This document shows, piece by piece, positions 5,000-22,595 of a stretch of 64,000 bases of DNA (the stretch's first letter is position 1; each line of letters opens with the position of its first letter). The notes beneath the pieces were generated by a model. That model searched no databases. It was not told the origin of the DNA and saw nothing but the letters and a program-made list of their open reading frames with translations. This stretch comes from Herbaspirillum sp. CF444. Lineage in GTDB: Bacteria; Pseudomonadota; Gammaproteobacteria; Burkholderiales; Burkholderiaceae_D. The DNA lies in the NCBI RefSeq assembly GCF_000282135.1, contig NZ_AKJW01000018.1:124001-188000 (forward strand), written 5' to 3'. The translations under genes were made by a program, and so were the position numbers.

Positions 5000-5470
5000 G
5001 TGCCTAAAAGCAAAAATATTTCACCCGAGCAGGCCAAGGATGCCGATGCGCTTGGCAGCTATCATTTCTCCGAGCAAGTAGGCCATTTATTGCGCCGCGC
5101 GTATCAGCACCATGTCGCGATTTTCCAGCAGCATATTTCGGATTCGCAGCTCACCGCGGCGCAGTTCGTGACGATGTGCGCGATTCAGGAGCATGGCACG
5201 TGTTCCCTGAGCGATATCGTCAAAACCACGGCGATCGACCAGGCGACCATTCGCGGCATTATCGAGCGGCTCAAGCTGCGCGAGCTGATCGTGCTGTCGC
5301 ACGACGCCGCGGATCGCCGCAAGGTGCTGGTGACGCTGAGCGACGCCGGCGCATCGCTGGTAAAGTCGACCGTGCCGCATGCGGCGGATATCTCGGAAGC
5401 GACTTTCGGCAAGCTCAATCCGGCCGAGCGCGTTGCGATCATGTTCCTGCTGCGCAAGATGATCGACTGA
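5000..5470 (+). CDS. nicR: MarR-family regulator, NicR-like repressor of nicotinate catabolism
   Basis: A 156-aa MarR regulator with a GTG start at 5000. The winged helix-turn-helix spans about residues 45-125, with CSLSDIVKTTAIDQATIRGIIERLKLRELI and the wing DAADRRKVLVTLSDAG (the DxRxxxVxLT-type MarR wing). Its size and place beside nic genes match NicR of the aerobic nicotinate pathway, which represses nic promoters until 6-hydroxynicotinate is present. Its stop is 2 bp from the converging stop of the nicB molybdenum-subunit gene, so no terminator separates them. Candidate operators are at 11307-11342 and 11511-11522. Confidence 0.75.
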   Translation: MPKSKNISPEQAKDADALGSYHFSEQVGHLLRRAYQHHVAIFQQHISDSQLTAAQFVTMCAIQEHGTCSLSDIVKTTAIDQATIRGIIERLKLRELIVLSHDAADRRKVLVTLSDAGASLVKSTVPHAADISEATFGKLNPAERVAIMFLLRKMID

Positions 5471-5472
5471 TT

Positions 5473-7782
5473 TCAGTTCCTGCCTGCCGGTGCGGCCAGC
5501 GCCTGCAGAATCTTTTCTGCGGTAAAAGGAGGCTGGCGAAAACGCCGGCCGGTCGCGTCAAACAGGGCATTGGCGATTGCCGCCGCGCTCGGTACGGAAG
5601 CCGACTCGCCGGCGCCCAGCGGCGGTTCTCCCTGCCGCTCCATCAACACCAGTTCCACAGGCGGCACTTCGCCGAATTTCAATATCGGATAAGCGCCCCA
5701 TTCCAGGCTGTTCACTCCTTGCGCATCAAAGCGCACCTGCTCCTTCAATACCCGGCTCAGCGACTGGATGATGTTGCCGTGCATCTGATGCCGCACGCCG
5801 TCAGGGTTGACCATCATGCCGGTATCCTGTCCGACCACCACTCGGTTCACCGTCAACGCGCCCGATCGCGGATCGACGCTGATGTCGATTACCCATGCCG
5901 ACCATGCTGCGCCGAAGCCGGGGAATTTACTGTGGACGTAGCGTGCATAGGCGATGCCGCGTCCGAGCAGCAGGCCGTCCATCCCGGCGATGCCGCGCGA
6001 GCCCGCGGCGCGCGCTTTCCATTGGGCGCGTTCAGCCGTGGCTTGCAGCAATTCGGCGGCGCGCTGGTCGTCGAGATGGCGCAGGCGGTATTCCAGCGGA
6101 TCGGCGCCGGCTTCGTGTGCAAGCTCGTCCATGAAGGCATCGTGCGCGAAGGAGTTCGGCAGCGCCGAGACGCCGCGCAGCCATGCCGAGCGGACTACGG
6201 GGGCCGTGTCGTCGCAGGCGATGCGGGTGTGCGCATAGCGGTAGGGCGGCACGGAAGTGCGGTCGCCCATCTCGAGCACCCGCGGCTCGGAAGGGACGGC
6301 GCCGGTCAGCAGCAGGGCCAGCGTCGGCGCGTCGTTGGAGGGATAGCGCGTAATGAAGTCGTAGGCGCCGAGCTCGCCTTCGCCGTCGATGCTGCCGCGC
6401 ACGCGCATCAGTTGCGCGGCGCCTTTGGGTTCCCATGCGTGTTCTTGCTCGCGCGTCAGTTGGACGCGCACGGGACGGCCGACGGCACGCGACAGCAACG
6501 CGGCGTCGGCGCCGACATCATCGGCGCAATTGCGGCCGTAGCAACCTGCGGCTTCCATGCGGACGACTTCAATCTTGCCTTCATCGATTTGCAGCAGCTG
6601 CGCCAGATCGATGCGCAGCACATGCGGATTTTGCGTGCCCGACCAGACCGTCAGGCCATCCTCGCGAAAATCCGCCAGGGAGCACGAAGGGCCGATCGAC
6701 GCGTGCATCTGGTAAGGCCAGACATAGGTGCGTTCAAGCGCCACGCCATCGCCGGACCGCGCTCGGGAGAATGCGGCCGCGGCGTCGCCTTGCCGCAGCA
6801 GCTCGCGCCGTCGCGAGGGCAGGTTGTGCAAGGTGGTTTCGAGATCGGCCATATCCGGCAGCGGCTGCTGCGGCTTCCATTGCACCCTGAGTTCGCGCGC
6901 GGCGCGTTGCGCCTGTTCCTCGCGCTCGGCGACGATGCCGATGAAGTCGCCTTGCACCACGATTGCCACGATGCCGGGCAGATGAGCGACGGAGGCCTTG
7001 TCGACCACGATCAGGCTGGCGCCGACGAAGGCACCGCCGTCGCGTCCGGCATACGGCGGGCGCACCACGCGTGCGTGCAGCATGCCGGGAACACGCATGT
7101 CGTGGACGTACACCAGTTCGCCCGTCACCTTGGCGGGAATGTCGACGCGCCGCGTGCTGCGGCCGACGACGCGATACTGGTCGACAGGCTTGAGGGCCAC
7201 CTCGCCGGCCGACAGCGGCAGCTCGATGCGCCTGCCGCGCAGCAGGTGTGCGTAACTGATCGACTTGGCCGGATTGTCGGCGGTGCTTACGATGCCGTCG
7301 CGCACCTGCAGCGCAGCGACGTCGGCTTGCAGATGTTGCGCGGCCAGCGCCAGCAGTTGATGACGCGCCTGGGCGGCGGCTTTTCTGAGCGGAATGGCGG
7401 AAATCTGTATCGTCGCGCTGGCGATGGTGGGGCCTTGATTGGGCGCTTCTTCGGTATGGCCCAGCACCATGGTGACGGCGTCGGGCGCGACGTCGAGTTC
7501 CTCCGCGACGATTTGCGCCAGCGAGGTGCGGATGCCGGTGCCGAGGTCGACGTGGCCGTTGAACGCCATCACGCGCCCATCGCCGAACAGGGCGATAAAG
7601 ACGTCGGGCTCGCGCGGCACATAGGACGAGGCTGCGCCGGGTTGGCCGGGCGCAGGCTTGGCGGCCGCCTGCGGCGCGCGCGTCACCAGCAGCACGTCGC
7701 CGCTGTCGAGCAGGCGGCGGCGCGTGTCGCTGGGTACGAGGATCGCCGGCGAGGCGCGACCGTTCGTCTGCTGCTGATCCAT
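5473..7782 (-). CDS. nicB: Nicotinate hydroxylase molybdopterin subunit (NicB-type, without cytochrome domains)
   Basis: A 769-aa xanthine-dehydrogenase-type molybdenum subunit that hydroxylates nicotinate at C6. The start at 7782 (MDQQQTNGRAS) has GGAAGG upstream; a TTG one codon earlier is less likely. It opens with the NicB-type module (VDLGTGIRTSLAQIVAEEL, about residue 78 on), then KVTGELVYVHDMRVPGMLHARVVRPP, the GCYGRNCADDVGADAA loop, the substrate-pocket motif RGVSALPNSFAHDAFMDE and catalytic Glu726 in GAGES. Pseudomonas NicB carries three C-terminal cytochrome c domains on one chain. This protein stops after the Mo domain; the haem part is encoded at 13366-16374. It is last in the leftward nicE-D-X-F-B run. 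Confidence 0.8.
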   Translation of the reverse strand: MDQQQTNGRASPAILVPSDTRRRLLDSGDVLLVTRAPQAAAKPAPGQPGAASSYVPREPDVFIALFGDGRVMAFNGHVDLGTGIRTSLAQIVAEELDVAPDAVTMVLGHTEEAPNQGPTIASATIQISAIPLRKAAAQARHQLLALAAQHLQADVAALQVRDGIVSTADNPAKSISYAHLLRGRRIELPLSAGEVALKPVDQYRVVGRSTRRVDIPAKVTGELVYVHDMRVPGMLHARVVRPPYAGRDGGAFVGASLIVVDKASVAHLPGIVAIVVQGDFIGIVAEREEQAQRAARELRVQWKPQQPLPDMADLETTLHNLPSRRRELLRQGDAAAAFSRARSGDGVALERTYVWPYQMHASIGPSCSLADFREDGLTVWSGTQNPHVLRIDLAQLLQIDEGKIEVVRMEAAGCYGRNCADDVGADAALLSRAVGRPVRVQLTREQEHAWEPKGAAQLMRVRGSIDGEGELGAYDFITRYPSNDAPTLALLLTGAVPSEPRVLEMGDRTSVPPYRYAHTRIACDDTAPVVRSAWLRGVSALPNSFAHDAFMDELAHEAGADPLEYRLRHLDDQRAAELLQATAERAQWKARAAGSRGIAGMDGLLLGRGIAYARYVHSKFPGFGAAWSAWVIDISVDPRSGALTVNRVVVGQDTGMMVNPDGVRHQMHGNIIQSLSRVLKEQVRFDAQGVNSLEWGAYPILKFGEVPPVELVLMERQGEPPLGAGESASVPSAAAIANALFDATGRRFRQPPFTAEKILQALAAPAGRN

Positions 7783-7828
7783 CAATGCCTTCCGTGCGGT
7801 TGGTTGTCGGTGCCGGTCGATGTTCCGA

Positions 7829-8461
7829 TCAGGCCTTGCCGGCGCGGGCAGTTGCTTCCAGCGCCTCGGTCAACGGCAATACTGTCGCATATTTTTGCGC
7901 CATGTCGAACAAGTTTGCCTCATGCGGGGCAATCGCGCGGTCGCCGACGCAATCGGACACCACCAGCGGACGAAATCCCCATGACATCGCATCGACGACG
8001 CTGGCGCGCACGCAACCGCTGGTGACGGCGCCGGCGACCAGCAAGGTCTGCACGCCATGCTGCGTCAACCAGGGGGCCAGCGAGGTGCCGAAGAAAGCCG
8101 ACGGTACGGTCTTGCGCACCACCAGCTCGCCGGCGGCGGGCGTCAATTCCGCGACGATGGCGCTGTTGGGGGTGTCTTCGGTCAGCGTCATCATGCCCGG
8201 CACCTTGATGCCGAAAATATTGCGGTCGGACGCGTCGTCGGCGAAGACGATGCGGCTGTGCGCGACGGCCCAGCCCTGCTGGCGCGCATGCGCCAGCAGT
8301 TTCTCGGTCCGGGCGATGGCGGGGGCGATATTGCCGCCGCCGAAGACATCCGGATTGGCGAAGCCGTTGACGAAATCGACGATCAACAGGCCGAACGGCG
8401 CTTTGGCTTCCAGCGTCTGGCCGAAGCCCTGGCGCTCGTAGGTGGAGATTTCCTTGTGCAT
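7829..8461 (-). CDS. nicF: Maleamate amidohydrolase
   Basis: A 210-aa isochorismatase-fold hydrolase that converts maleamate to maleate and ammonia. The catalytic triad is Asp29 (LLIVDFVNGF), Lys117 (VVRKTVPSAFFGT) and Cys150 (GAVTSGCVRASVVDA). A non-proline cis-peptide is expected before the Cys loop. The start at 8461 (MHKEISTYERQGF) has AAGGA upstream. Length and N-terminus agree with NicF of Pseudomonas putida. It sits between nicX and nicB in the leftward nic transcription unit, 46 bp from the nicB start. Confidence 0.87.
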   Translation of the reverse strand: MHKEISTYERQGFGQTLEAKAPFGLLIVDFVNGFANPDVFGGGNIAPAIARTEKLLAHARQQGWAVAHSRIVFADDASDRNIFGIKVPGMMTLTEDTPNSAIVAELTPAAGELVVRKTVPSAFFGTSLAPWLTQHGVQTLLVAGAVTSGCVRASVVDAMSWGFRPLVVSDCVGDRAIAPHEANLFDMAQKYATVLPLTEALEATARAGKA

Positions 8462-8531
8462 GATCTGTTCCTTGCTGGATATGAGTCTGCCTATGAGGCT
8501 GCCCGAAAGAGGAGATAAAAGAGGCAATGAA

Positions 8532-9584
8532 TCAGGATTTGCCGTATGCGAAACCGTCGAGCACCTTGCCATTGCGCACGACGGCCTCGCCGTCCAGGGA
8601 AACCGTGCAGCGGCGCAGCGGGATGTCGATATGGCAGGCGGTATTGCGCTGGCCGCCGGCTTCGTTGTTGGGGCCGAAGGAGAACAGGAAGTTGCCCTCG
8701 TAGGCGCGCGCGTCCATGCCGATGGTGGCTTCGCGGTCGTACATGGCCAGCGTCGACCAGTGCGCGCGCGGTTGCAGGCCCCAGCCGATGTGCGACATCG
8801 CGTAGGCTTCCGGATCCTTGAACGAGGCCATGTATTCGCTCAGCAATTCGGCGTCGACGCCGCCTTCGATGTTGGTGACGAAACCATTGCGCACGGTGAC
8901 ATGGATCGGCTCCTGCGCGTACGATTTCATCGGCAGCAGGATATCGCCGCGATCGATGACGAGCGTGCCTTCGGTGCCGCGTTCGTTCGGCCAGGTCAGC
9001 ACGAAGCCGCTCGGCCAGTGATCCCAGCGCCCGGGCTCGTCGACAAAACCATATTCGCTGATCACCGGGAATTCACCCAGCGGGCAGCGCAGGTCGGTGC
9101 CGGCTTCCGAGCTGATGTGCATGTGCTTTGCGCCTTGCAGTTTCCTGGCGGCTTGCGTCACGCGTTGCTTGTCGTCGGCGCTCGGCACCATGCGCACCAA
9201 TACCTCGGGCGGTTCCACCGCCAGCAAAATTTTGGTTCCTGCCTTGAGTATCTCGTGCTGCTCGGGTGAGAACAGCAGCGTCATCAGATCGAGCACCAGA
9301 TCGCTTTCTTTCAGCGCCGCGATGGCGGCGCGATTGCCGGTCAGCGGCGTGGTGCCGAGATAGGCCAGCGAGTCGCGGCTGAGCGCCTTCTCCGCGTTGA
9401 CCGGCTGCAGGTCGAGCCGGTTGGCGGTCGCGCCGAGAAGGCCGATGGCGGTCAGCGCCGTCGACAGGGTTTGCGGGTGCGTGCTGCTGCTGGTAAGCAC
9501 CGTGACGATGTGCGCGGGTTCGAGTTTGGAAAGCGTCAACACCTGCTTCCAGGCTTGAATCAGATCGTAGTCGCTGACGGCCAT
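8532..9584 (-). CDS. nicX: 2,5-dihydroxypyridine 5,6-dioxygenase
   Basis: A 350-aa mononuclear Fe(II) extradiol-type dioxygenase that opens the ring of 2,5-dihydroxypyridine to N-formylmaleamate. The length equals that of P. putida NicX. The iron ligands known for that enzyme fall at the same numbers here: His265 (MSHIGWG), His318 and Asp320 (NTACHIDIP). The start at 9584 (MAVSDYDLIQAWK) is preceded by AAAGGA. It lies in the leftward run between nicD and nicF, 56 bp from nicD. The family is unrelated to cupin dioxygenases, so the call is specific. Confidence 0.92.
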   Translation of the reverse strand: MAVSDYDLIQAWKQVLTLSKLEPAHIVTVLTSSSTHPQTLSTALTAIGLLGATANRLDLQPVNAEKALSRDSLAYLGTTPLTGNRAAIAALKESDLVLDLMTLLFSPEQHEILKAGTKILLAVEPPEVLVRMVPSADDKQRVTQAARKLQGAKHMHISSEAGTDLRCPLGEFPVISEYGFVDEPGRWDHWPSGFVLTWPNERGTEGTLVIDRGDILLPMKSYAQEPIHVTVRNGFVTNIEGGVDAELLSEYMASFKDPEAYAMSHIGWGLQPRAHWSTLAMYDREATIGMDARAYEGNFLFSFGPNNEAGGQRNTACHIDIPLRRCTVSLDGEAVVRNGKVLDGFAYGKS

Positions 9585-9640
9585 GGCCTGTCCTTTCTGA
9601 AGAGGCGCCATGCATGCACACGGCGCAGTGAGTCAAACAA

Positions 9641-10465
9641 TTACAACGGAGCGCCGAGGAATTCGCCGAAGGCCGCATAGAAGCCTTCTTCGTCATCCCA
9701 GGGGATCATGTGGCCGGCGTTGTCGACCCGCGCCACGCCGACTTGCGGCAGCAGCGCGCGGATCTCGTCGATGTCGGCCGGCAGCAGCACGTCGCCGCGT
9801 CCGGCGACGATCAGCAGCGCCGGAATTTTTACCGCCGGCAGGTGCTGGTGGATGTCGTCGGCATGGAAGCCGTCGAAGCTGGCGATCACGGCGCGCTCGT
9901 CGCAGGTATGCAGCCATTCCGCGCGCAGGCGCAGCTGTTCTTCCGTCCAGGTGGGACAAAAGGCGCGCATCTGCCCGGCGCTGCAGCCTTCGCGCGCCAG
10001 TTCCATCGAGTCGACGTACCACGGCAGCTTGGATGGGTAGGCGCGCCGTCCAGGGCCGGAAACCGGCGGATCGATCATGACCAGGCTGTTCAGTCCGCGC
10101 GGACGGTGCGCGGCGGCGCGAATGCCGATGCGGCCGCCCATGGAGTGGCCGACGATGGCGTAGCGCTGCAGGCCCAGGGCTTCGGCGAAAGCGATGACGT
10201 CGTCGGCTTGCGCCTCCAGGCTGTAGTCCAGTTCGGTCGAGGCCGACGACAGGCCGCGTCCGCGCACGTCGATCACATACGTATCGAAGTGGCGGCCGAA
10301 GCGTTCGCCGACGAAGCCCCAGGTCGCCGCCGGGCTGGTGATGCCGGGAACGATGATCACGGCGTCGCGCGCTGCGCGGCCGCCTTCGGCGCCGCCGTAG
10401 CGAAGATAGTGCTGGCGGATGCCGTTGGCGCGGACGTTGGCGCCGTAGAGAAAAGTGCTGGTCAT
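9641..10465 (-). CDS. nicD: N-formylmaleamate deformylase
   Basis: A 274-aa alpha/beta-hydrolase that removes formate from N-formylmaleamate to give maleamate. The nucleophile elbow is GHSMGG (Ser108), the acid is probably Asp132 in VMIDPP, and the base is His252 in DNAGHMIPWDD. The oxyanion region is VPGITSPAATW. The start at 10465 (MTSTFLYGANVRANG) has AAGGA upstream; the open frame further 5' belongs to another frame of nicE. It is flanked by nicE and nicX. Context and the NicD-like N-terminus set it apart from generic hydrolases. Confidence 0.88.
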   Translation of the reverse strand: MTSTFLYGANVRANGIRQHYLRYGGAEGGRAARDAVIIVPGITSPAATWGFVGERFGRHFDTYVIDVRGRGLSSASTELDYSLEAQADDVIAFAEALGLQRYAIVGHSMGGRIGIRAAAHRPRGLNSLVMIDPPVSGPGRRAYPSKLPWYVDSMELAREGCSAGQMRAFCPTWTEEQLRLRAEWLHTCDERAVIASFDGFHADDIHQHLPAVKIPALLIVAGRGDVLLPADIDEIRALLPQVGVARVDNAGHMIPWDDEEGFYAAFGEFLGAPL

Positions 10466-10512
10466 GACGATCCTTGATGCGGGAGAGAGTGGGGCGTTCA
10501 GTGGCGTCGCCG

Positions 10513-11265
10513 TCAGTAGGCGCCGGACAGCAGCGCACCGGCGCCGGGCACGATGGTTTCCAGGTTGAGCCGCTTGAGCATGGCGTAGGTGGTGGCGACG
10601 GCGGCGGTGATGACCGGTTTGCCGGTCATCGCTTCCACTTGCGCGATCACCGGCAGCGACGGCATTTGCACGCAGGCCGACAGCACGATGGCGTCGACAT
10701 TGCGGGTATCCATCTGCGCAACGATGGCCGGCAGGCGCGACGGATCGTGGCGGCCGACTTCCAGGTTGTCGGGGATTTCCAGCGCGCGCCATTCGACGAC
10801 GTCGTAGCCTTCGTGGCGAATGTAGTCGACCACCAGTTCCGTCAAGGGCTTCATGTACGGCGCGACCACCACGATGCGCTTGGCGCCGATGACCTTGAGT
10901 CCGTCGATCAGCGCGCCCGCGCTGGTGACGACCGGCGCGTCCGCGCCATTGGCGGCGGTGTGGGCGGTCAGTCGCTGCTCGGACTTGCGGTGATAGCCGC
11001 GGCCCATGGCCATGATGGCAACCAGGCAGGCGTAGCCGAGCACGTCGACGCGGGCGTCGCTCAGTTCCACGGCGCAGCGGTCGGATTCGCCGTCCATGGC
11101 CGCCAGCTCGTCTTTCTCGACGCGCTTCATGCGCATGCGGCTGGAATGGAAGGTAAAGCGTTCGGGCCGGATCATCTGCCGCGCCGTCAGCATCGCGGGG
11201 ATCTCCGTTTCCATGGTGGTGTTCGAACTCGGCACGATCTGTCCGATGCGGTATGCCTTTTGCAT
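10513..11265 (-). CDS. nicE: Maleate cis-trans isomerase
   Basis: A 250-aa Asp/Glu racemase-superfamily enzyme that isomerises maleate to fumarate, the last step of the aerobic nicotinate route. The two catalytic Cys residues are Cys80 (LGYACLVAIMAMG) and Cys198 (VLSACVQMPSL). The N-terminus RIGQIVPSSNTTMETEIP is diagnostic of maleate isomerase. The length equals P. putida NicE. The start at 11265 follows GGAGAGACAA. It is the first gene of the leftward nic unit, and its upstream region is shared with divergent nicC. Confidence 0.9.
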   Translation of the reverse strand: MQKAYRIGQIVPSSNTTMETEIPAMLTARQMIRPERFTFHSSRMRMKRVEKDELAAMDGESDRCAVELSDARVDVLGYACLVAIMAMGRGYHRKSEQRLTAHTAANGADAPVVTSAGALIDGLKVIGAKRIVVVAPYMKPLTELVVDYIRHEGYDVVEWRALEIPDNLEVGRHDPSRLPAIVAQMDTRNVDAIVLSACVQMPSLPVIAQVEAMTGKPVITAAVATTYAMLKRLNLETIVPGAGALLSGAY

Positions 11266-11306
11266 TTGTCTCTCCAGGTGGTTGGCGTTGCCCGTGGAAA
11301 ACATGA

Positions 11307-11342
11307 GTGTTTACACGGAATATAGAGTGCATACGCTATATT
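11307..11342 (-). promoter_or_regulatory. Candidate NicR operator region before nicE
   Basis: GTGTTTACAC (11307-11316) is followed by a 24-bp imperfect palindrome, AATATAG (11319-11325) and CTATATT (11336-11342) around GTGCATAC. On the leftward strand the palindrome lies about 18 bp downstream of a TTGCCA -35-like hexamer, so it would cover the -10 or transcription start. The GTGT-N2-ACAC box recurs at the nicC promoter. Assigning it to NicR is inference. Confidence 0.45.
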
Positions 11343-11493
11343 TAATCATTTTATGGAAATTGGCAAGGCTCCTTTGTGGCTTCTGTAATTTTTATGATGA
11401 TCGTCCAAGATAGTGCTAAATATGCGCTAATTTGGCGCACTGCAAAATAATTTGCACGCAAAAAGTGATTTTAAATATCCGGGAAACATTTTC

Positions 11494-11522
11494 TTTACTT
11501 TGAAAAAAGCAGTGTGTACACT
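11494..11522 (+). promoter_or_regulatory. Candidate nicC promoter with overlapping operator
   Basis: TTTACT (-35, 11494-11499), a 17-bp spacer and TACACT (-10, 11517-11522) precede nicC by about 57 bp. The palindrome AGTGT-GT-ACACT (11511-11522) covers the -10 element, as expected for a MarR-type repressor site. The rest of the 313-bp region between nicE and nicC is AT-rich and holds no gene. Confidence 0.5.
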
Positions 11523-11548
11523 CAATTTCAGGTTGTAGTGCTTGTTGA

Positions 11549-12730
<1,182 letters not shown>

Positions 12731-12850
12731 CCGACGAGCAGGAAAGAGCAGGAAATGGCACAAATCCCGGACGGCTGGCCCGTTCGGGATGTGTGCCGAT
12801 AAGTTAACGCGCCAACCGGATCCGCCAGCAGCGATTTTCTGAGACTTGCC

Positions 12851-13369
12851 ATGTCAGCTTCCCGTCCACTGTCGATAGAGGTCAACCGCATCCGGCACAC
12901 GCTGGATGTCGCGCCCGACGTTCCTTTGCTGAACGTTCTGCGCAACGACCTTTGTCTCAATGGGCCGAAGTTCGGCTGCGGCCTGGGAGAGTGCGGCGCC
13001 TGTACGGTGCTGGTCGACGGCGTGGCGGCGCGATCCTGCGTGATCCCGCTGGTGGGTGTCGACGGGCGTTGCATCACCACGCTCGAAGGACTGGCGGCGC
13101 CGGCCGGTGACGGCCGGGCGCCGCAACTTGATCCGGTGCAGCAAGCTTTTATCGACGAGCAAGCCGCGCAGTGCGGCTACTGCATCAACGGCATGATCAT
13201 GACGATCAAGGCATTGCTGCTGCGCAAGCCCGAGCCGACTGAACAGGAAATCCGCTCCGAGCTTGAATTCAATCTCTGCCGCTGCGGCACGCACGTGGAA
13301 ATCATGCGCGCCGCCTTGCGGGCAGTCCAGCTGAACAAGGCAGCCGTCGCGAGCGAGGCAAGCCGATGA
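12851..13369 (+). CDS. nicA: Nicotinate hydroxylase [2Fe-2S] small subunit
   Basis: A 172-aa two-cluster iron-sulfur subunit of the xanthine-dehydrogenase family that passes electrons from the Mo site towards haem. The plant-ferredoxin-type cluster uses CGLGECGACTVLVDG with a further Cys (ARSCVIP). The second, helical cluster uses QCGYCINGM and NLCRCGTH. It overlaps the next gene by 4 bp (ATGA), so those two are translationally coupled, whereas the catalytic Mo subunit is made from the opposite strand about 5 kb away. Confidence 0.9.
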   Translation: MSASRPLSIEVNRIRHTLDVAPDVPLLNVLRNDLCLNGPKFGCGLGECGACTVLVDGVAARSCVIPLVGVDGRCITTLEGLAAPAGDGRAPQLDPVQQAFIDEQAAQCGYCINGMIMTIKALLLRKPEPTEQEIRSELEFNLCRCGTHVEIMRAALRAVQLNKAAVASEASR

Positions 13370-16300
13370 ACGCTGCGCTTCTTTCCCTCCGGCCGGATGC
13401 TGCGGACATGCTGTATGGCCGTGTCCTCAGGCCGCCTCGCCTGGACTGGAACGGCCGCGACTATACCGGCATGCATCTGGCGTGGCACGACGTCGCGTCG
13501 CTGGCGGACGTGCCTGGCATCGTCAGGCTGGTCGTGCGCGGCGACTTCATCGGCATCGTCGCGACGGAAGACCGCTACGCGTTGCAAGCGATCGCGCAAC
13601 TGCGGGTTCGATGGAAGGCGCACGAGGCATCGCCGCAATCGCTTCCCGCGGAACGGCAGTACAGCACCGTTTATGCACGCGGCGACGTCGCAGGTGCTTT
13701 CGGCGCATCGTCCTCCCCCATGGAGCGTTCTTACAGCTGGACGGCGACGGGCGTTTTGCCGGATGCCGGCGATCCGATGCTCAGCGCGATTGCGGATTGC
13801 AACGCCGGAGGTGCGCGTCTGTGGACCGCGTCGCCGCTTTCCGCCGTTGTGCGTCAGCAGATTGCCGCATTGATCGGGATGCCCGCGTCCATGGTGCAGT
13901 CGGATGTGGCGCAGTTCGACGAAGATTTTTTCAAGCGCGAACCGGGTCTTGCACAGATTCAGCAAGACGCCGCTGCGGACGCCGCACTCTTGTCGGCGGC
14001 GGCGGGACGTCCCGTCAGCGTCACCTTGTTGCCGGAACAGGCCGGCGTCATGACGCGGCGGATGGTGGCGCAGATCGAAGCCGGAATCGACACGCAAGTC
14101 GATGCAAAAAACGGCGGCGGCATACTCGCCTATCGTCACACGGCGCATGCCGCCAGCGGGAATTTTCCGCCGCTGGCGCTCATGCTGGCGGGGATTGCCG
14201 ATCCGGTCAGCGATGCCGCTTCCGGCGTGCATGATCAGTACGGCGCGCAGCTGCCGCCGTATGCCTATGCCAATGTGCAACTGGTTCAGCAGGGTCATGC
14301 CGGCGACTATGCCGCCGCGCATGTTTTTGCGCATGAGTCGTTCATCGACGAGGCAGCCCGTCAAGCCGGGGCGGATCCGGTGCAATATCGTTTGCAACAT
14401 CTGCAGGACGAGCGCGGTGCAGCGCTGGTGCACGCCGTTGCGCGGCAAGCCGGCTGGAACGGCGCGGCAGCAGAAAAGAAAGCCGGCGGCAATATGTTGC
14501 GCGGACGCGGATTTGCCTATGCCAGCGTCATCGACGAAGGCGGCAAGCCGGACGCAGCGCGCCGGCAATGGTCGGCGTGGGTGGCGGATGTCGAATACGA
14601 TCGCGATTCCGGCGACCTCAGCGTGACCCGCGTGGTGGTCGGACAAGACGTCGCCGAAGCCGGAACAGACATGCAGCCAGGCGACTTTCACCGCATTGAA
14701 GATGAGGCTTCGCGCAGCGACGCACAATCGGCGATGCGTGGATTGCTGGCAAGCGAAAGCAGCTTCGATGCCTGGGCAAAGCAGGAATACGGCATCAGCG
14801 TTGCATCCGCCGTGCAGGCATCGCTGCCCGCGGTGGAACTGGTGGGTCTGCCCGCCGCGAAGAACGGCGGCACGCCCGGGCCGGTTCGCCTGAGCGGCAA
14901 CGCCGCCTTTTCTCTTCCGGCGGCTGCTGCCGTCGCCAACGCGATTCACGACGCCACCGGCATCCGTTTGCGTTCGGCGCCGTTCAGCAGCGAACAGCTG
15001 CGTCTCGCGCTGGGGGAAGGCAAGACGGCGAAGAAGCGCATCCTCGGCTGGAAGGGCGGCATCTTCGGCGGCGTCGCCGCGACGCTCGCAGGCTTGTTCG
15101 TCATGGCGTCGCCGTGGCGCGCCGAGATCAAACCGATCGCCGCTCCCGACCCGACCCTGTATTCCGCCGCGACCATCGCGCGCGGCAAGCTGGTTGCCGC
15201 GGCGGGCGACTGCGTGGTGTGCCACACCGCGCCCAACGGCGTGCCCAACGCCGGCGGCCATGCCCTGGAAACGCCCTTCGGCACGGTCTACAGCACCAAC
15301 ATTACTCCGGATGAAAAGACCGGCATCGGCAACTGGTCGTTTGCCGCGTTTGAACGCGCCATGCGCGAAGGGATTCACCGCGACGGCCGTCATTTGTATC
15401 CAGCCTTTCCTTACACCGCATTCGCCAGGATCAGCGATGCCGACATGCAGGCGCTGTATGCCTACCTGATGGCGCAGGAACCGGTCGCGCATGCGCCGCC
15501 GGCAACCAGGCTGGCGTTCCCGTTCGGCGCGCGGCCGCTGATGGCGGGATGGAACCTGCTGTTTCACAAGAACGAACAATTCGTGCCGGATGCTTCGCGC
15601 TCGGCGCAATGGAATCGCGGCGCCTATCTGGTGGAAGGCGCCGGCCATTGCAGTGCCTGCCACTCGCCGCGCAACATGCTGGGGGCAGAAAAAGGCGGGC
15701 GCGCGTATCTCGCCGGCGGCAGCGCCGACGGCTGGGAAGCGCCTGCACTGACTTCCTTGTCGCGGGCGCCGGTGCCGTGGAGCGAAGCGGAATTGTTCAC
15801 TTATCTGCGCACCGGATTTTCGCCATTGCACGGCGTTGCCGCGGGTCCGATGGCGCCGGTGGTGGCCGAACTGGCGCAATTGCCTGCCGACGATGTGCGT
15901 GCCATCGCGCACTATCTGGCCTCGTTCAATGAGCCTGCGTTGCGGGAAAAATCGAAGACAACCGTTGCCGTCGCGGCCGATACGGAGACACCGGCGACAA
16001 CAACGATGCAGACACAAACCGTTGCCTCCGTCATGGGCGCCAATCTGTATCGCGGCTCCTGCGCCGTGTGCCATCAGGGCGATACCGGTCCGACCTTGTT
16101 CGGCGTCAAGCCGTCGCTGTCGCTCAACACCAATGTGCACAGCGCCGCGCCGGACAACCTGATCCGCGTGATTTTGCAAGGCATACGCGAGCCGGCCAAT
16201 CCCGAGCTCGGCTACATGCCCGGATTCGCCGATAGTTTCAATGACGAACAACTGGTCGAATTGTTGAAATACCTGCGTGCAAACTTTGCCGCGGACAAAC

Positions 16301-16374
16301 CGGCGTGGCCGGATCTGAAAGCCGACGTGGCGCGAATACGAGAGGCCGGCAAGGCCGCAGCGCTGACTCACTGA
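13366..16374 (+). CDS. nicB: Nicotinate hydroxylase cytochrome subunit: degenerate molybdopterin-like domain fused to three cytochrome c domains
   Basis: A 1002-aa fusion. Residues 1-550 align with the NicB-type Mo domain of 5473-7782 from that protein's residue ~230 on ([43 protein letters not shown]). The first ~230 residues are missing, as are the CYGRN.ADD loop and the RGVSALPN pocket motif. The catalytic GAGE is replaced by RLSG. A hydrophobic anchor lies at ~563-580 ([18 protein letters not shown]). Three haem c sites follow: CVVCH (616-620), CSACH (762-766) and CAVCH (899-903). The likely role is to receive electrons from NicA and pass them to the respiratory chain. The frame is intact, so it is not a pseudogene. 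The ATG overlaps the nicA stop. Confidence 0.82.
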
Positions 16375-18023: not shown

Positions 18024-18033
18024 GGTCTTGGGA

Positions 18034-18071
18034 GCAACAGCAGGCGGGACGGCCGGCCTGCCTGCTGTTGC
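18034..18071. other. Strong GC-rich stem-loop after the chemoreceptor gene
   Basis: GCAACAGCAGGC (18034-18045) pairs perfectly with GCCTGCTGTTGC (18060-18071). There is no T-run, so this is not a classical terminator. It may stabilise the mRNA 3' end or cause Rho-assisted termination between the chemoreceptor and porin genes. Confidence 0.55.
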
Positions 18072-18189
18072 CCCGGGAGGTCCGGTCGCGCCGGCGAGGG
18101 GCTGGCGCGGCCGGGCTTGCAGTGCAATGGGAGCAATGAGAGTCACGGGAACAATGGGATATCACTTAACCAGCATAAGGGAAGGCAAC

Positions 18190-19233
18190 ATGAAAAAGGA
18201 ATTTGCGCTTGGCGCATTGGGTTTGTTGTGCGGGACGGGGTCGGCAATGGCCCAGTCCAACGTCACAATCTATGGCGTACTCGACACCTATATGGCATAC
18301 ACCAATGCCACCGGCAAAGGCAGTGTGGTGTCGATGGACGGCGGCGGCTATCAGGCCAACCGCATCGGCTTTCGCGGCACGGAAGACCTGGGCGGCGGTC
18401 TGCGCGCCAACTTCCAGTTGGAGAACGGCTTTTTGTCCGACACCGGCGGCCTGGCCGACAGCACGCGGCTGTTCAACCGCCAGTCGTGGATCGGCCTGGC
18501 CGGCGGCTTCGGCGAAGTGCGTGCCGGGCGCCAGAACTCACCGGGATTCCTGATGACTGCCCGCCTGGATGCCTTCGCAGGCGCAACTTTTGCTTCTTTC
18601 CTCAGCAATGTGACGGCCTATACCCCGCGCTACGACAACATGATCGGCTACATTTCGCCAAGCATGAACGGCTTGAAGCTGCAAGCCTATGTCGGACTCG
18701 GCGAGCAGGTGGCGCCGAGGAACGGCCAGAACTCGTACATGTTCGGTGCTGAATATGACAGCGGCCCGCTCTCGCTGTCCCTCAACTCGTCGTGGCAAAA
18801 CAGCGCCAACGACAACCAGTCGATCAAGTCGACCTTTGCCGGCGGCGCTTACGATTACGGCATGGGCAAGGTGTACCTGGGGTATTACCGCGGCAACAAC
18901 CTCGGCGCCGCCGCGGCGACCAACGTGGCCGGCGTGTATTACAGCGCGTATTCGATCTCGGCGAATTATCGCGTGACGGCGCAGGGTACGCTGGGCGCCG
19001 GCTATGGCTGGGCCAAGGACAGCAGCGGTGCGGACCGGAATGCGCGTCAGTTCAGCCTGATAGGCACTTACGATCTGTCCAAGCGCACCATGCTGTACAG
19101 CACCTACGCGCATCTGAGCAACAAGAACGGCGCAACGTTCTCGCTCAGCGGCGCAGGGCCGATCACCAAGAATGTGCCGACGGCAGGCGGCACCGTCAAC
19201 GGCGTGCAGGTCGGCATTCGCCATCTGTTCTGA
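18190..19233 (+). CDS. Gram-negative porin linked to the nicotinate locus
   Basis: A 347-aa outer-membrane porin with signal peptide KKEFALGALGLLCGTGSAMA-QS and mature start NVTIYGVLDTYMAYT. Family marks are FRGTEDLGGGLRANFQLENGF, LFNRQSWIGLAGGFGEVRAGRQ, YDLSKRTMLYSTYAHL and the terminal GIRHLF. The start at 18190 follows AAGGGAAGG. It lies between the nic genes and an ABC importer in the same direction, and a terminator separates it from the importer. It is probably the outer-membrane entry for the importer's solute, possibly nicotinate (inference from position). Confidence 0.88.
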   Translation: MKKEFALGALGLLCGTGSAMAQSNVTIYGVLDTYMAYTNATGKGSVVSMDGGGYQANRIGFRGTEDLGGGLRANFQLENGFLSDTGGLADSTRLFNRQSWIGLAGGFGEVRAGRQNSPGFLMTARLDAFAGATFASFLSNVTAYTPRYDNMIGYISPSMNGLKLQAYVGLGEQVAPRNGQNSYMFGAEYDSGPLSLSLNSSWQNSANDNQSIKSTFAGGAYDYGMGKVYLGYYRGNNLGAAAATNVAGVYYSAYSISANYRVTAQGTLGAGYGWAKDSSGADRNARQFSLIGTYDLSKRTMLYSTYAHLSNKNGATFSLSGAGPITKNVPTAGGTVNGVQVGIRHLF

Positions 19234-19287
19234 TGTTCTGATAGCGGCGGTGGGCGCCCGGCGTCCGCCGCGCAGGCTTGAAGTACC

Positions 19288-19308
19288 GACCGCTTGCGCG
19301 GTCTTTTT
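19288..19308 (+). terminator. Rho-independent terminator after the porin
   Basis: GACCGC-TTGC-GCGGTC (19288-19303) is followed by TTTTT. It lies 17 bp before the binding-protein start, so it probably limits read-through and lets porin expression exceed that of the importer. Confidence 0.8.
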
Positions 19309-19324
19309 AGAAAAGGGAATTATC

Positions 19325-20569
19325 GTGACTGAATTTCTTGGGTTTTCTCGTCGCCGCCGCGGCTTCTCGCAATTTTTGCAATTCTTGCAATGCGCAGTCG
19401 CCGTCTCGGCACTGGCCTGCACCGGCAGCGTCATGGCGCAAGCCACGATCAAGATTGGCGAAATCAACAGCTACAAGGCGCAGCCCGCCTTCCTCGAACC
19501 GTACCGCCATGGCTGGGAAATGGCGCTCGAAGAAATCAACGGCAGCGGCGGCGTGCTCGGCAAGAAGCTGGAAGTGATCGCCCGCGACGACAACGGCAAT
19601 CCGGGCGATTCCGTGCGCGTTGCGGAAGAACTGGTGACGCGCGAGCAGGTGGCCTTGCTGTTCGGCGGCTTCTTGTCCAACACGGGCCTGGCATTGACCG
19701 ACTACGCCAAGCAGCGCAAGATTTTCTTCCTGGCGGGCGAGCCGCTGACCGACAAGATCGTCTGGCAAAACGGCAACAAGTATACATATCGCCTGCGGCC
19801 CTCGACTTACATGCAGGTGGCCTCGCTGGTCAAGGAAGCCGCCAAGCTCAAGAAGAAGCGTTGGGCCATCGTCTACCCCAACTATGAATACGGCCAGTCG
19901 GCATCCGCCACGTTCAAGAAGCTCATGAAAGAGCTCCAGCCGGACATCGAGTTCGTTGCCGAACAGGCGCCGCCGCTGGGCAAGATCGATGCCGGCGCCG
20001 TCACGCAGGCATTGGCCGACGCCAAGCCGGATGCGATCTTCAATGCGCTGTTTGCGGCCGACCTCGGCAAGTTCGTGCGCGACGGCAATACGCGCGGTCT
20101 GTTCGAAGGCCGCGAAGTGGTCTCGCTGCTGACCGGCGAACCGGAATACCTCGATCCGCTGCGCGCCGAGGCGCCCGTCAACTGGATCGTCACCGGTTAT
20201 CCCTGGTATGCGTTGACCACGCCCGAGCACAAGAAATTCGTCGACGCCTATCGCAAGAAGTTCAATGACTATCCGCGCAATGGTTCATTGGTGGGCTACA
20301 CCGCGCTGATGTCGATTGCGGCAGGCTTGAAAAAGGCCGGCGCCGTGGATTCCGATAAACTGGCGGCAGCGTTTTCCGGCCTCAAGGTCGATACGCCGGT
20401 GGGGCCGATCATTTATCGCATGCAAGATCATCAATCGACAATGGGTGCTTTCGTCGGCCGCACCGGCGTCAAGGATGGCAAGGGGGTGATGGCCAGCTTT
20501 GTCTACGTGGATGGCGCGGCGGTGCAGCTGCCCGACGCGGAAGTAAAGAAGTTGCGTCCGGCCGATTGA
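19325..20569 (+). CDS. ABC transporter substrate-binding protein, branched-chain amino acid type
   Basis: A 414-aa periplasmic receptor (Peripla_BP_6 type). The GTG start at 19325 follows AAGGGAATTATC; the signal peptide runs to GSVMA-QA. The mature start IKIGEINSYKAQPAFLEPYRHGWEMALEEINGSGGVLGKKLEVIARDDNGNPGDSVRVAEELV is characteristic, as is the hinge region IVYPNYEYGQSASATFKKLMKEL. It heads a four-gene run of binding protein, fused permeases and two ATPases. Members of this family import amino acids, aromatic acids and other carboxylates. Its place next to nic genes, with no NicT-type permease visible, suggests nicotinate or a related pyridine carboxylate. Confidence 0.85.
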   Translation: MTEFLGFSRRRRGFSQFLQFLQCAVAVSALACTGSVMAQATIKIGEINSYKAQPAFLEPYRHGWEMALEEINGSGGVLGKKLEVIARDDNGNPGDSVRVAEELVTREQVALLFGGFLSNTGLALTDYAKQRKIFFLAGEPLTDKIVWQNGNKYTYRLRPSTYMQVASLVKEAAKLKKKRWAIVYPNYEYGQSASATFKKLMKELQPDIEFVAEQAPPLGKIDAGAVTQALADAKPDAIFNALFAADLGKFVRDGNTRGLFEGREVVSLLTGEPEYLDPLRAEAPVNWIVTGYPWYALTTPEHKKFVDAYRKKFNDYPRNGSLVGYTALMSIAAGLKKAGAVDSDKLAAAFSGLKVDTPVGPIIYRMQDHQSTMGAFVGRTGVKDGKGVMASFVYVDGAAVQLPDAEVKKLRPAD

Positions 20570-20666
20570 TCCTCCAATCGATTAATCATGTAGCAACCGG
20601 CGACGGGCGGTGGTTTTCCGGGAAACGCAGGAAAGCTGCCGCCAACCGCCTCAGGGAAATCAAGGT

Positions 20667-22595
20667 ATGACTCTCTCAAGTCTGATAGTACAGTTGATCA
20701 ACGGCCTGGCCGATGCTTCCACCATGTTTCTGGTGGCGGCGGGCCTGTCGCTGATCTTCGGCGTGACGCGCATCGTCAACTTCGCCCACGGCTCGTTTTA
20801 CATGCTGGGCATTTTCATTGTTTATTCACTGGTGAGCCTGATCGGCGCCAGCGGCGTCGGTTTCTGGAGTGCGGTGCTGTTGTCCGCCTGTGCCGTCGCA
20901 CTGCTCGGCGCACTGGTCGAGATCGTCATCTTGCGCCGTATCTACCGTGCGCCGGAGTTGTTCCAGTTGCTGGCGACCTTCGCGCTGGTGCTGGTGCTCA
21001 AGGATGCCGCGCTCTACATCTGGGGACCGGAAGATCTGTTCGGCCCGCGCGCGCCGGGCCTGGGTGGTTCGGTGCAGCTGCTGGGCCGACGCCTGCCGCA
21101 ATACGATCTGGTGCTGATTTTCATCGGCCCGGTCGTGCTCGGCCTGCTGTGGCTGCTGCTCAACCGCACGCGTTGGGGTACGCTGATCCGGGCCGCGACG
21201 CAAGATCGTGAAATGGTCGGCGCGCTGGGCATCAATCAGTCCTGGCTCTTCACCGGCGTATTCGCGCTGGGCTGTTTCCTCGCGGGCCTGGGCGGCGCGC
21301 TGCAAGGTCCGCGCATTCCCGCCAACCTGGCGCTCGATCTGGAAACGATAGGCAACGCCTTCGTGGTGGTGGTGGTCGGCGGCATGGGCTCGATCAGCGG
21401 CGCTTTTCTCGCCGCCTTGCTGATCGCCGAAATCAAGGCGCTCTGCGTGGCGATCGGGCAGGTATCCCTGTTCGGCATCGACGTGTCGCTGTCCAAGCTG
21501 ACGCTGGTGGTGGAGTTCCTGGTGATGGCTTTCATTCTCGTGGTGCGTCCCTGGGGCTTGCTCGGCAAACCGCAGGCAGCCAGCCGCGCCAGCGGACCGC
21601 CGGAAGCGCCTCTGCGCGCGGCCAGCACGATGCAGCGCAAGCTCGGCCTGGCCGGTCTGGCGTTGCTGGTGGCGGCGCCGCTGCTGTCGGGCAGCTTCCC
21701 TTACCTGACCGTGCTGCTGGTGGAAATTCTGATTGCCGTCCTGTTTGCCGCCAGTCTGCATTTCATGATGGGACCGGGCGGCATGCATTCCTTCGGTCAT
21801 GCCGCGTACTTCGGCCTGGGCGCCTATGCCGCGGCGCTGGTGCTGACCAAGCTGCATCTGCCGATGGAAGTGGCGATGATCGTCGGTCCCCTGGCGGCGG
21901 CGGCCGGCGCCTTGTTGTTCGGCTGGTTCTGCGTGCGCCTGTCGGGTGTGTATCTGGCGATGCTGACGCTGGCGTTTGCGCAGATCGTCTGGGCCATCAT
22001 TTATCAGTGGGATGACGTCACCGGCGGCAGCAACGGCCTGGTCGGCATCTGGCCGTCGGCTTGGGCGGCTTCGCCGGTAGCGTTCTATTACTTGGCGCTG
22101 GCGTTCAGCGTGATCGGCGTGCTGCTGTTGCGCCGCGTGCTGTTCTCGCCGTTCGGGTATGCCATGCGCGCCGGCCGCGATTCTTCGTTGCGCGCCGACG
22201 CCATCGGCATCGACGTCAAGCGCATGCAATGGATGGCTTTCGTGGTGGCGGGATTGTTTTGCGGCGTGGCGGGCGTATTGTTCGCGTTCTCCAAGGGCAG
22301 CATTTCGCCGGAAGCGATCAGCGTCGGACGTTCCGTCGACGGCCTGGTGATGGTCATGCTGGGTGGTTTGCAGACCTTGCTGGGGCCGGTGGTGGGCGCG
22401 GCGGTATTCACCTGGTTGCAAGACATCATCGCGCGCGAAACCGATTACTGGCGCGCACTGCTGGGCCTGATCATCCTGGCGCTGGTGCTGTTGTTCCCTG
22501 CCGGTATTGCAGGATTTTTCCAGAAACTGTTTGATCGCGGCGAAGAAGGCGAAGCAGCGTCCGTCCGGAACGACATCAGCAAGGAGGCGGCATGA
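20667..22595 (+). CDS. Fused LivH-LivM permease of a branched-chain-type ABC transporter
   Basis: A 642-aa protein joining two permeases that are usually separate. Residues 1-295 resemble LivH (GLADASTMFLVAAGLSLIFGVTRIVNFAHGSFYMLG; GLGGALQGPRIPANLALDLETIGNAFVVVVVGGMGSISG). After a linker (~298-320) residues ~325-625 resemble LivM (HFMMGPGGMHSFGHAAYFGLGAYAAALVL; AMRAGRDSSLRADAIGIDVKRMQWMAF; EAISVGRSVDGLVMVMLGGLQTLLGPVVGAAVF). The start at 20667 (MTLSSLIVQLING) is chosen for the LivH N-terminus. It overlaps the next gene by 4 bp. Confidence 0.88.
   Translation: MTLSSLIVQLINGLADASTMFLVAAGLSLIFGVTRIVNFAHGSFYMLGIFIVYSLVSLIGASGVGFWSAVLLSACAVALLGALVEIVILRRIYRAPELFQLLATFALVLVLKDAALYIWGPEDLFGPRAPGLGGSVQLLGRRLPQYDLVLIFIGPVVLGLLWLLLNRTRWGTLIRAATQDREMVGALGINQSWLFTGVFALGCFLAGLGGALQGPRIPANLALDLETIGNAFVVVVVGGMGSISGAFLAALLIAEIKALCVAIGQVSLFGIDVSLSKLTLVVEFLVMAFILVVRPWGLLGKPQAASRASGPPEAPLRAASTMQRKLGLAGLALLVAAPLLSGSFPYLTVLLVEILIAVLFAASLHFMMGPGGMHSFGHAAYFGLGAYAAALVLTKLHLPMEVAMIVGPLAAAAGALLFGWFCVRLSGVYLAMLTLAFAQIVWAIIYQWDDVTGGSNGLVGIWPSAWAASPVAFYYLALAFSVIGVLLLRRVLFSPFGYAMRAGRDSSLRADAIGIDVKRMQWMAFVVAGLFCGVAGVLFAFSKGSISPEAISVGRSVDGLVMVMLGGLQTLLGPVVGAAVFTWLQDIIARETDYWRALLGLIILALVLLFPAGIAGFFQKLFDRGEEGEAASVRNDISKEAA

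Follow-up and report, generated by a model that had tools for sequence, protein, structure and literature searches.

In a 64,000-nucleotide stretch of Herbaspirillum sp. CF444 (contig NZ_AKJW01000018.1, positions 124,001 to 188,000; hereafter the window), the gene at 13366-16374 on the plus strand appears to encode the membrane cytochrome subunit of a three-part nicotinate dehydrogenase. We regard it as fairly probable that this subunit descends from a duplicated fused nicB and that its molybdenum (Mo) domain now serves as a non-catalytic docking module. Judged from its motifs, the domain is apparently non-catalytic, and calling this subunit a Mo enzyme from its first domain would be wrong. 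The gene had been singled out in an earlier note made from the sequence of the window. Beyond that note, we found that the arrangement is common to a whole clade and that six Burkholderia/Paraburkholderia records have the domain cut to about its C-terminal half.

A cytochrome subunit with a degenerate Mo domain

The nicB2-like open reading frame (ORF) at 13366-16374 encodes 1002 amino acids, is open throughout without an internal stop and starts with an ATG that overlaps the nicA stop by 4 nt. The GC content by codon position is coding-like in both of its parts (0.72/0.51/0.72 in the degenerate domain and 0.64/0.53/0.76 in the cytochrome part). The earlier note had recognized a NicB-type Mo domain in the first ~550 residues and had listed four elements as missing, namely the N-terminal ~230 residues, CYGRN.ADD, RGVSALPN and the catalytic Glu of GAGE. 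Alignment and motif checks bear out both points. Using BLASTP, residues 15-549 align to the intact Mo subunit of the same window from the latter's residue 235 (34% identity, E 1e-61), and the N-terminal ~230 residues are therefore absent from the cytochrome subunit. None of the motifs GHVDLGTG, CYGRN.ADD, RGVSALPN and GAGE occurs in the cytochrome subunit of the window, and the 64 homologues of this type are all alike in these losses. The degenerate domain (residues 1-555; 13366-15030, plus strand) scores 28.2 for Pfam MoCoBD_1, barely above the cut-off of 27, and has no listed match to MoCoBD_2; the scores of the intact subunit are 100 for MoCoBD_1 and 125 for MoCoBD_2.

This intact, nicB1-like subunit of ~769 amino acids contains GHVDLGTG, CYGRNCADD, RGVSALPN and GAGES in full. 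It had been placed at 5473-7782 and described as intact, which is correct, but the gene lies on the minus strand at 5473-7785 with its ATG at 7782.

The three CxxCH haem sites had also been read correctly; they lie at residues 616-620 (15211-15225), 762-766 (15649-15663) and 899-903 (16060-16074). The best solved relative of the cytochrome part (residues 573-993) is 8gy3_A (E 3.2e-99), and the three CxxCH together with the homology to known chains identify the window protein as a three-haem membrane dehydrogenase cytochrome subunit. In three Achromobacter cytochrome subunits (L123, L127, L145) we observed a fourth CxxCH; their first CxxCH falls within the degenerate domain, probably by chance.

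The membrane anchor proposed in the note survives in a weaker form. Residues ~564-582 (15055-15111, plus strand; Kyte-Doolittle mean 1.67, from hydropathy alone) form a hydrophobic segment preceded by Lys/Arg, and a peak of at least 1.4 within 90 residues before the first CxxCH was found in 89 of 93 degenerate-domain or fused ORFs. However, the peak at ~564 is equalled by possibly non-membrane stretches of the intact subunit (1.82) and of NicA (1.68). Because soluble stretches of the same proteins have peaks nearly as high, hydropathy by itself is not discriminating and the segment is only a probable membrane span.

To place the domain structurally, we compared models with solved structures. 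Mo subunits were the first matches of the degenerate domain, with a Z-score of 28.6 to 8gy3_C (root mean square deviation 6.8, 474 residues aligned), and the intact subunit matched the same chain with 34.7 (2.8, 679 residues). The domain is thus predicted to keep the overall xanthine-oxidase-family fold. Block means of the model are mostly 70-97 for residues 11-460 with dips to 51-65, and it is poor at 465-484 and 499-503. Since the cytochrome part is modelled poorly (predicted local distance difference test below 50 over much of 567-736), we draw nothing from how the parts are positioned towards each other. BLASTP, Pfam and the fold agree on the same family, which rules out that the domain stems from another one.

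Motif loss and pairing among homologues

Homologues were collected from a search of the family, in which 38 of 294 genomes matched at E 1e-20, from one of the order, with 57 matching genomes among 399 at E 1e-40, and from named genomes (597 stretches and 231 relatives listed, of which the best 80 were used). The genome searches contribute up to 30 loci each, and all counts are among the matches listed. Loci L036-L161, apart from the window, were sorted by profile scores including one for the N-terminal part; CYGRN, RGxS and GxGE were not used for sorting. The sorting gave 64 cytochrome ORFs with a degenerate domain and 63 separate Mo subunits; fused NicB accounted for 29 ORFs plus 1 partial case, and the rest were 3 cytochrome-only ORFs, 22 distant relatives and 6 others. 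At least 64 ORFs of the degenerate type (61 distinct), mostly from Burkholderiales, therefore exist besides the window.

The four motifs GHVDLGTG, CYGRN, RG[VA][SA]x[LM]P and GxGE were each found in 0 of the 64 degenerate-type ORFs. GHVDLGTG, CYGRN and RGxSxLP are each present in 63/63 separate Mo subunits and in 29/29 fused NicB, and GxGE in 62/63 and, by pattern, 28/29. Because the same losses recur in 64/64 homologues of this type, the loss is more than chance, with the restriction that the absence of the N-terminal part (GHVDLGTG region) is partly a matter of definition, as a low score for that part was a sorting rule. In the alignment, the catalytic column holds Glu in none of 50 degenerate domains (two have Asp), in 39/39 main-group Mo subunits (39 of 42 aligned, with L061, L065 and L100 left out) and in 14/14 non-alphaproteobacterial fused NicB. 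A constancy of at least 95% across Mo subunits and fused NicB is reached in 193 columns, and in 116 of them the degenerate domains have another majority state, at least 35 of the 116 falling in the absent N-terminal part. Only few, scattered sites separate Mo subunits consistently from fused NicB.

The genomic pairing is one to one: 54 loci (52 after removal of two duplicate records) contain one degenerate-domain ORF and one Mo subunit each. No degenerate copy was seen in the 29 fused-NicB loci, six of which (L054-L059) are only ~4.6 kb long, and no locus combines a degenerate copy with a fused NicB. The degenerate-domain ORF stands alone in 10 loci, all short or abutting a contig end, so that the partner may lie outside; in G598, one such case, a 776-aa frame is listed elsewhere on the contig. 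Seven loci have the Mo subunit alone. Four of them are 4.6-kb loci from genomes with a candidate second frame in the search table, and the remaining three are Herbaspirillum frisingense, on two contigs (L042, L043), L111 with a truncated partner and L156, where the sequence breaks off near nicA. Among the named genera that carry the pair are Herbaspirillum, Cupriavidus, Achromobacter, Bordetella, Alcaligenes, Advenella, Pusillimonas, Delftia and Caballeronia. A separate class-wide search at E 1e-60, a threshold too strict for more distant fused NicB, matched 3 of 369 genomes: the window's own, one with a cytochrome-only layout (G384) and one outside Burkholderiales (G1041), which carries an intact Mo subunit together with a degenerate-domain cytochrome ORF.

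Two further ORFs are recorded here as side observations. On a conjugative plasmid of Pseudomonas sp. BYT-1 (L168, NZ_CP072560.1), the ORF at 8530-10986 adjoins an IS6100 transposase gene and has three CxxCH together with a Mo domain of the live type, of which the later part, including GSGES, is present; unlike the degenerate-domain clade, it looks like a 5'-truncated NicB relative. Herbaspirillum sp. CF444 itself has another Mo-subunit-like frame (G000:C59:183208-184758) with 35% identity to the degenerate domain.

Origin, constraint and possible role of the domain

The simplest account of the split enzyme is a duplication followed by complementary loss. The ancestor would have been a fused NicB, consisting of Mo domain, membrane segment and three haem c, encoded next to nicA. 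After duplication of nicB, one copy, now the last gene of the divergent nicEDXF operon, would have lost its cytochrome part and become the catalytic Mo subunit, and the copy left beside nicA would have lost its first ~230 codons together with the cofactor and catalytic motifs. The place after nicA and the overlap with it are common to fused NicB, which argues that the degenerate-domain gene is the old nicB in place. In 42 of 53 loci there is an ATG exactly at -4 relative to the nicA stop, as in 7/7 fused NicB checked; start codons were picked by a rule favouring the 4-nt overlap, and 8 of 61 listed loci received no start.

For the phylogeny of the shared domain, we removed L043, L083, L143 and L157 (copies or a fragment) and sampled 26 of 60 degenerate domains, 31 of 62 Mo subunits, 16 of 29 fused NicB and 7 of 22 distant relatives. 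In the resulting quick tree, all 26 degenerate domains form one clade (SH-aLRT 98), and 28 of the 31 Mo subunits form another (SH-aLRT 99) adjoining the fused NicB of the same order. The tree has long branches, comes with a warning that some branches meet and does not place the degenerate clade. In the cytochrome tree, the cytochromes of the degenerate type form one group at 67/82 only.

To estimate the constraint on the domain, the ratio of nonsynonymous to synonymous substitutions (dN/dS) was calculated for 11 non-overlapping pairs out of 56 close ones. The medians were 0.231 for the degenerate domain, 0.076 for the cytochrome part and 0.080 for the Mo subunit with NG86, and 0.187, 0.049 and 0.045 with YN00 (10 pairs). 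The domain is under purifying selection, less so than the neighbouring parts. One of three alternatives that we consider unlikely is a slowly eroding relic: the old Mo domain would have lost its job with the split, and a remnant whose fold is stable enough to leave the cytochrome part unharmed would be deleted piecemeal. Fast evolution (mean distance 1.09, compared with 0.40 in the Mo subunit and 0.44 in the cytochrome part), a dN/dS about three times that of the partners, the N-terminal shortening in the six Burkholderia/Paraburkholderia records and the existence of split enzymes without the domain (L061, L065) all fit this idea. It is harder to reconcile with a dN/dS (NG86) of 0.064-0.389 in 11/11 pairs, with a length from start to cytochrome part that stays at 501-680 aa (median 582) in the 53 measured loci, the six reduced records not among them, and with 24 columns that are invariant in 50 aligned sequences, five diverged ones left out (both structure alignments included the window, next to 49 of 54 loci in one and 41 of 61 in the other). 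Moreover, no main-clade Mo subunit with a cytochrome-only partner was seen among the sorted loci; the Mo subunits of L061 and L065 fall outside the main split clade. The spacing before the cytochrome part lies above the median in L133 (680 aa) and L144 (667 aa), reflecting inserts or misplaced starts.

According to the docking reading, the degenerate domain would tether both NicA and the catalytic subunit to the membrane, and the electrons from nicotinate hydroxylation, having moved from Mo to the 2Fe-2S clusters, would pass on to the cytochrome. By the positive-inside reading, the domain would lie on the cytoplasmic side. Attachment of haem c takes place in the periplasm. No clear export signal was visible by eye in the Mo subunits or in fused NicB, and the Mo-type domain precedes the hydrophobic segment with Lys/Arg before it. 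The Mo and iron-sulphur (Fe-S) centres thus seem to be cytoplasmic and the haems periplasmic, with one probable membrane segment between them, a topology puzzle for the whole NicAB group.

Docking to the Mo subunit or NicA, as proposed in the note, is plausible because the one-to-one pairing with an intact Mo subunit, the purifying selection and the retained fold fit it, but the evidence from rate co-variation is weak and singles out no partner. In the 38 of 53 loci with all four controls, the Mo subunit ranked first among seven proteins (partial correlation 0.56), while the value for the domain's own cytochrome part was 0.12. With 150 random columns per protein, the co-divergence was 0.42 for the Mo subunit, 0.42 for NicA, 0.37 for NicF, 0.25 for NicC, 0.16 for NicX, 0.05 for the cytochrome part and -0.04 for NicD. 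An equal column number removes the lead of the Mo subunit over NicA and NicF, and co-divergence is therefore only a hint. The domain does not simply track its own cytochrome part.

Many enzymes of the xanthine-oxidase family have their Mo subunits as a homodimer. The degenerate domain could accordingly replace the second Mo subunit, giving an obligate heterodimer of one live and one dead protomer. The shared fold and the one-to-one pairing are as expected, as is the co-divergence with the Mo subunit, which was strongest before column numbers were equalised and not specific afterwards. Against it, the interface would have to spare the region that Burkholderia/Paraburkholderia have lost, and PaoABC does not dimerize this way according to the passages available (PMC3958847). 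We give this arrangement the same low probability as the relic. Still less probable is a mere assembly aid, in which the domain captures NicA during translation of the overlapping genes or helps to load the cofactor into the Mo subunit and has no role in the finished enzyme. The nicA overlap in most of the loci placed and the co-divergence with NicA (0.42 at equal column number) would suit such a role, but the overlap is also found in the 7/7 fused NicB checked and looks inherited. Two other candidates were rejected outright: a recent pseudogene or sequencing error, because the window gene and 64 homologous ORFs all have an open frame and dN/dS is far below 1 in 11/11 pairs, and two halves of one live site (Eubacterium barkeri type), because the separate Mo subunit is complete and the degenerate domain lacks the loops.

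Several results weigh against a docking module derived from a duplicated nicB. In the free tree, the degenerate clade has long branches and falls outside the group made up of fused NicB and Mo subunits; approximately unbiased tests, run with nine further rows left out, reject neither a clade with the Mo subunits (p 0.378) nor one with fused NicB (p 0.416). The co-divergence with the Mo subunit and NicA hardly exceeds that with the control NicF, and the faster rate and the shrinkage in Burkholderia/Paraburkholderia fit slow decay, too. The domain is also not needed in principle: L061 and L065 have cytochrome subunits without a Mo-like domain beside their Mo subunits, the cytochrome chain of 8gy3 (444 residues) lacks such a domain, and Comamonas NdhM (46 kDa) is probably a cytochrome without one.

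The shortened copies hint at which part of the domain counts. Six records from a plasmid collection (L166, L170-L174; Burkholderia/Paraburkholderia) have shorter cytochrome subunits with open frames of 818-879 aa; the annotated gene in AP028202.1 has 2424 bp and is named 'c-type cytochrome'. The reduced domains match the profile only from about position 251-268 of 524, that is, about the C-terminal half, and Caballeronia (L154, L167, L169) is intermediate. All six lie beside an intact Mo subunit and keep the FAxES helix region, GRGFA, the (S/T)AWV strand and the ANALxDATGVRFRAPPF helix. Because only this half, next to the membrane segment, is kept, it is, from the sequence pattern, probably the working part. 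Complementary loss may have produced one live subunit and one obligate pseudoenzyme subunit pared to its docking core, from ~750 aa in the live fused form to ~555 aa in the degenerate one and ~350 aa in the half (annotated Paraburkholderia gene), a view that we hold only tentatively. If true, the surviving half would mark the surface that holds the Mo/Fe-S dehydrogenase to the membrane cytochrome.

The nic cluster and comparison with known systems

Within 5473-16374, the window holds nicA, a separate intact Mo gene and a cytochrome gene in a single nic cluster, which is the arrangement of the tripartite enzyme. The cluster starts with the regulator, followed on the minus strand by nicE, nicD, nicX, nicF and the Mo subunit gene, which is the last of this divergent nicEDXF operon, and on the plus strand by nicC, nicA and, directly after nicA, the degenerate-domain gene. 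Gene names rest on related-family matches under the curated cut-offs (none for nicX), on AP028202.1, an annotated Paraburkholderia record with the same order, and on a Delftia gene list. The nicA-like [2Fe-2S] subunit (12851-13369, plus strand, 172 aa) contains Fer2 and Fer2_2. Upstream of it lies a nicC-like flavin adenine dinucleotide (FAD) monooxygenase (11564-12730, plus), which has sub-cut-off family matches and an FAD-dependent monooxygenase at the same position of AP028202.1. On the minus strand, the nicE-like maleate isomerase (10513-11304) has sub-cut-off related-family matches and a maleate isomerase in the same position of AP028202.1; the nicD-like alpha/beta hydrolase (9641-10480) and the nicF-like isochorismatase-type amidohydrolase (7829-8572), both with uncertain starts, are named from such matches and synteny. 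The nicX-like 2,5-dihydroxypyridine dioxygenase (8532-9611) has no NCBIfam match and is named by position alone, following the Delftia list. The MarR-type regulator (nicR/bpsR-like; 5000-5470, plus) has sub-cut-off related-family matches and bpsR in the same position of AP028202.1.

A divergent promoter region of 259 bp (11305-11563) separates nicEDXF and the Mo subunit gene from nicC, nicA and the cytochrome subunit gene. It contains a near-palindrome at 11320-11342, which may be the operator for the MarR-type regulator. At 18028-22595, downstream of these genes, a porin-like protein and parts of an ATP-binding cassette transporter related to the urea/branched-chain amino acid type (sub-cut-off matches) possibly serve the uptake of nicotinate or a related compound.

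We take fused NicB to be of the Pseudomonas putida type; our comparison is based on 29 fused homologues, P. putida not among them. They resemble the window gene in the place after nicA, the domain order, the hydrophobic segment and a cytochrome part with CxxCH, but have kept the live Mo motifs that the window gene lacks. The Gluconobacter oxydans membrane-bound aldehyde dehydrogenase 8gy3 provides both the best fold match of the two Mo-type domains (chain C) and the best sequence match of the cytochrome part (chain A). Eubacterium barkeri nicotinate dehydrogenase (3hrd), a nicotinate-oxidising relative, has its Mo part on two chains, as far as described in the passages available (PMC10331938); the two, with 425 and 330 residues, each correspond to a different part of a single domain, in contrast to one whole live and one degenerate domain in the window. 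Comamonas testosteroni NdhS/L/M, given as 21, 82 and 46 kDa in the same excerpts (PMC10331938), likewise has separate Fe-S, Mo and third subunits, but its third subunit has 46 kDa, whereas that of the window carries a Mo-like domain of 555 residues. Among the sorted loci, L061 and L065 have the Comamonas-type layout.

The closest systems are the three-part NicA/NicB1/NicB2 nicotinic acid hydroxylase stated for Burkholderia gladioli and Bordetella (PMC10269826) and the gene list of Delftia acidovorans Cs1-4 with nicB2 beside nicA and nicB1 at the other end (PMC4572682). Both concern three genes, and the Delftia order is that of the window and of AP028202.1. In the parts accessible to us, these papers name the subunits only and do not mention a degenerate Mo domain on NicB2, which we found in Delftia (L146) and Bordetella (L125, L137) loci; nor did the literature searched, in listings and passages, yield a description of a dead Mo domain in such an enzyme. 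Growth on nicotinate is reported in an excerpt for Alcaligenes aquatilis QD168 (PMC6460240), whose genus-mates L131 and L136 have the degenerate-domain subunit; its growth is no more than an indirect hint at a working split enzyme. Taken together, the three-part enzyme is already known and, going by the literature seen in part, its dead Mo domain appears new. NicA and the Mo subunit alone may not make the whole enzyme in these bacteria, and the domain, which recurs in many species paired with a live partner, offers a natural deletion series for how a Mo/Fe-S hydroxylase hands electrons to a membrane cytochrome.

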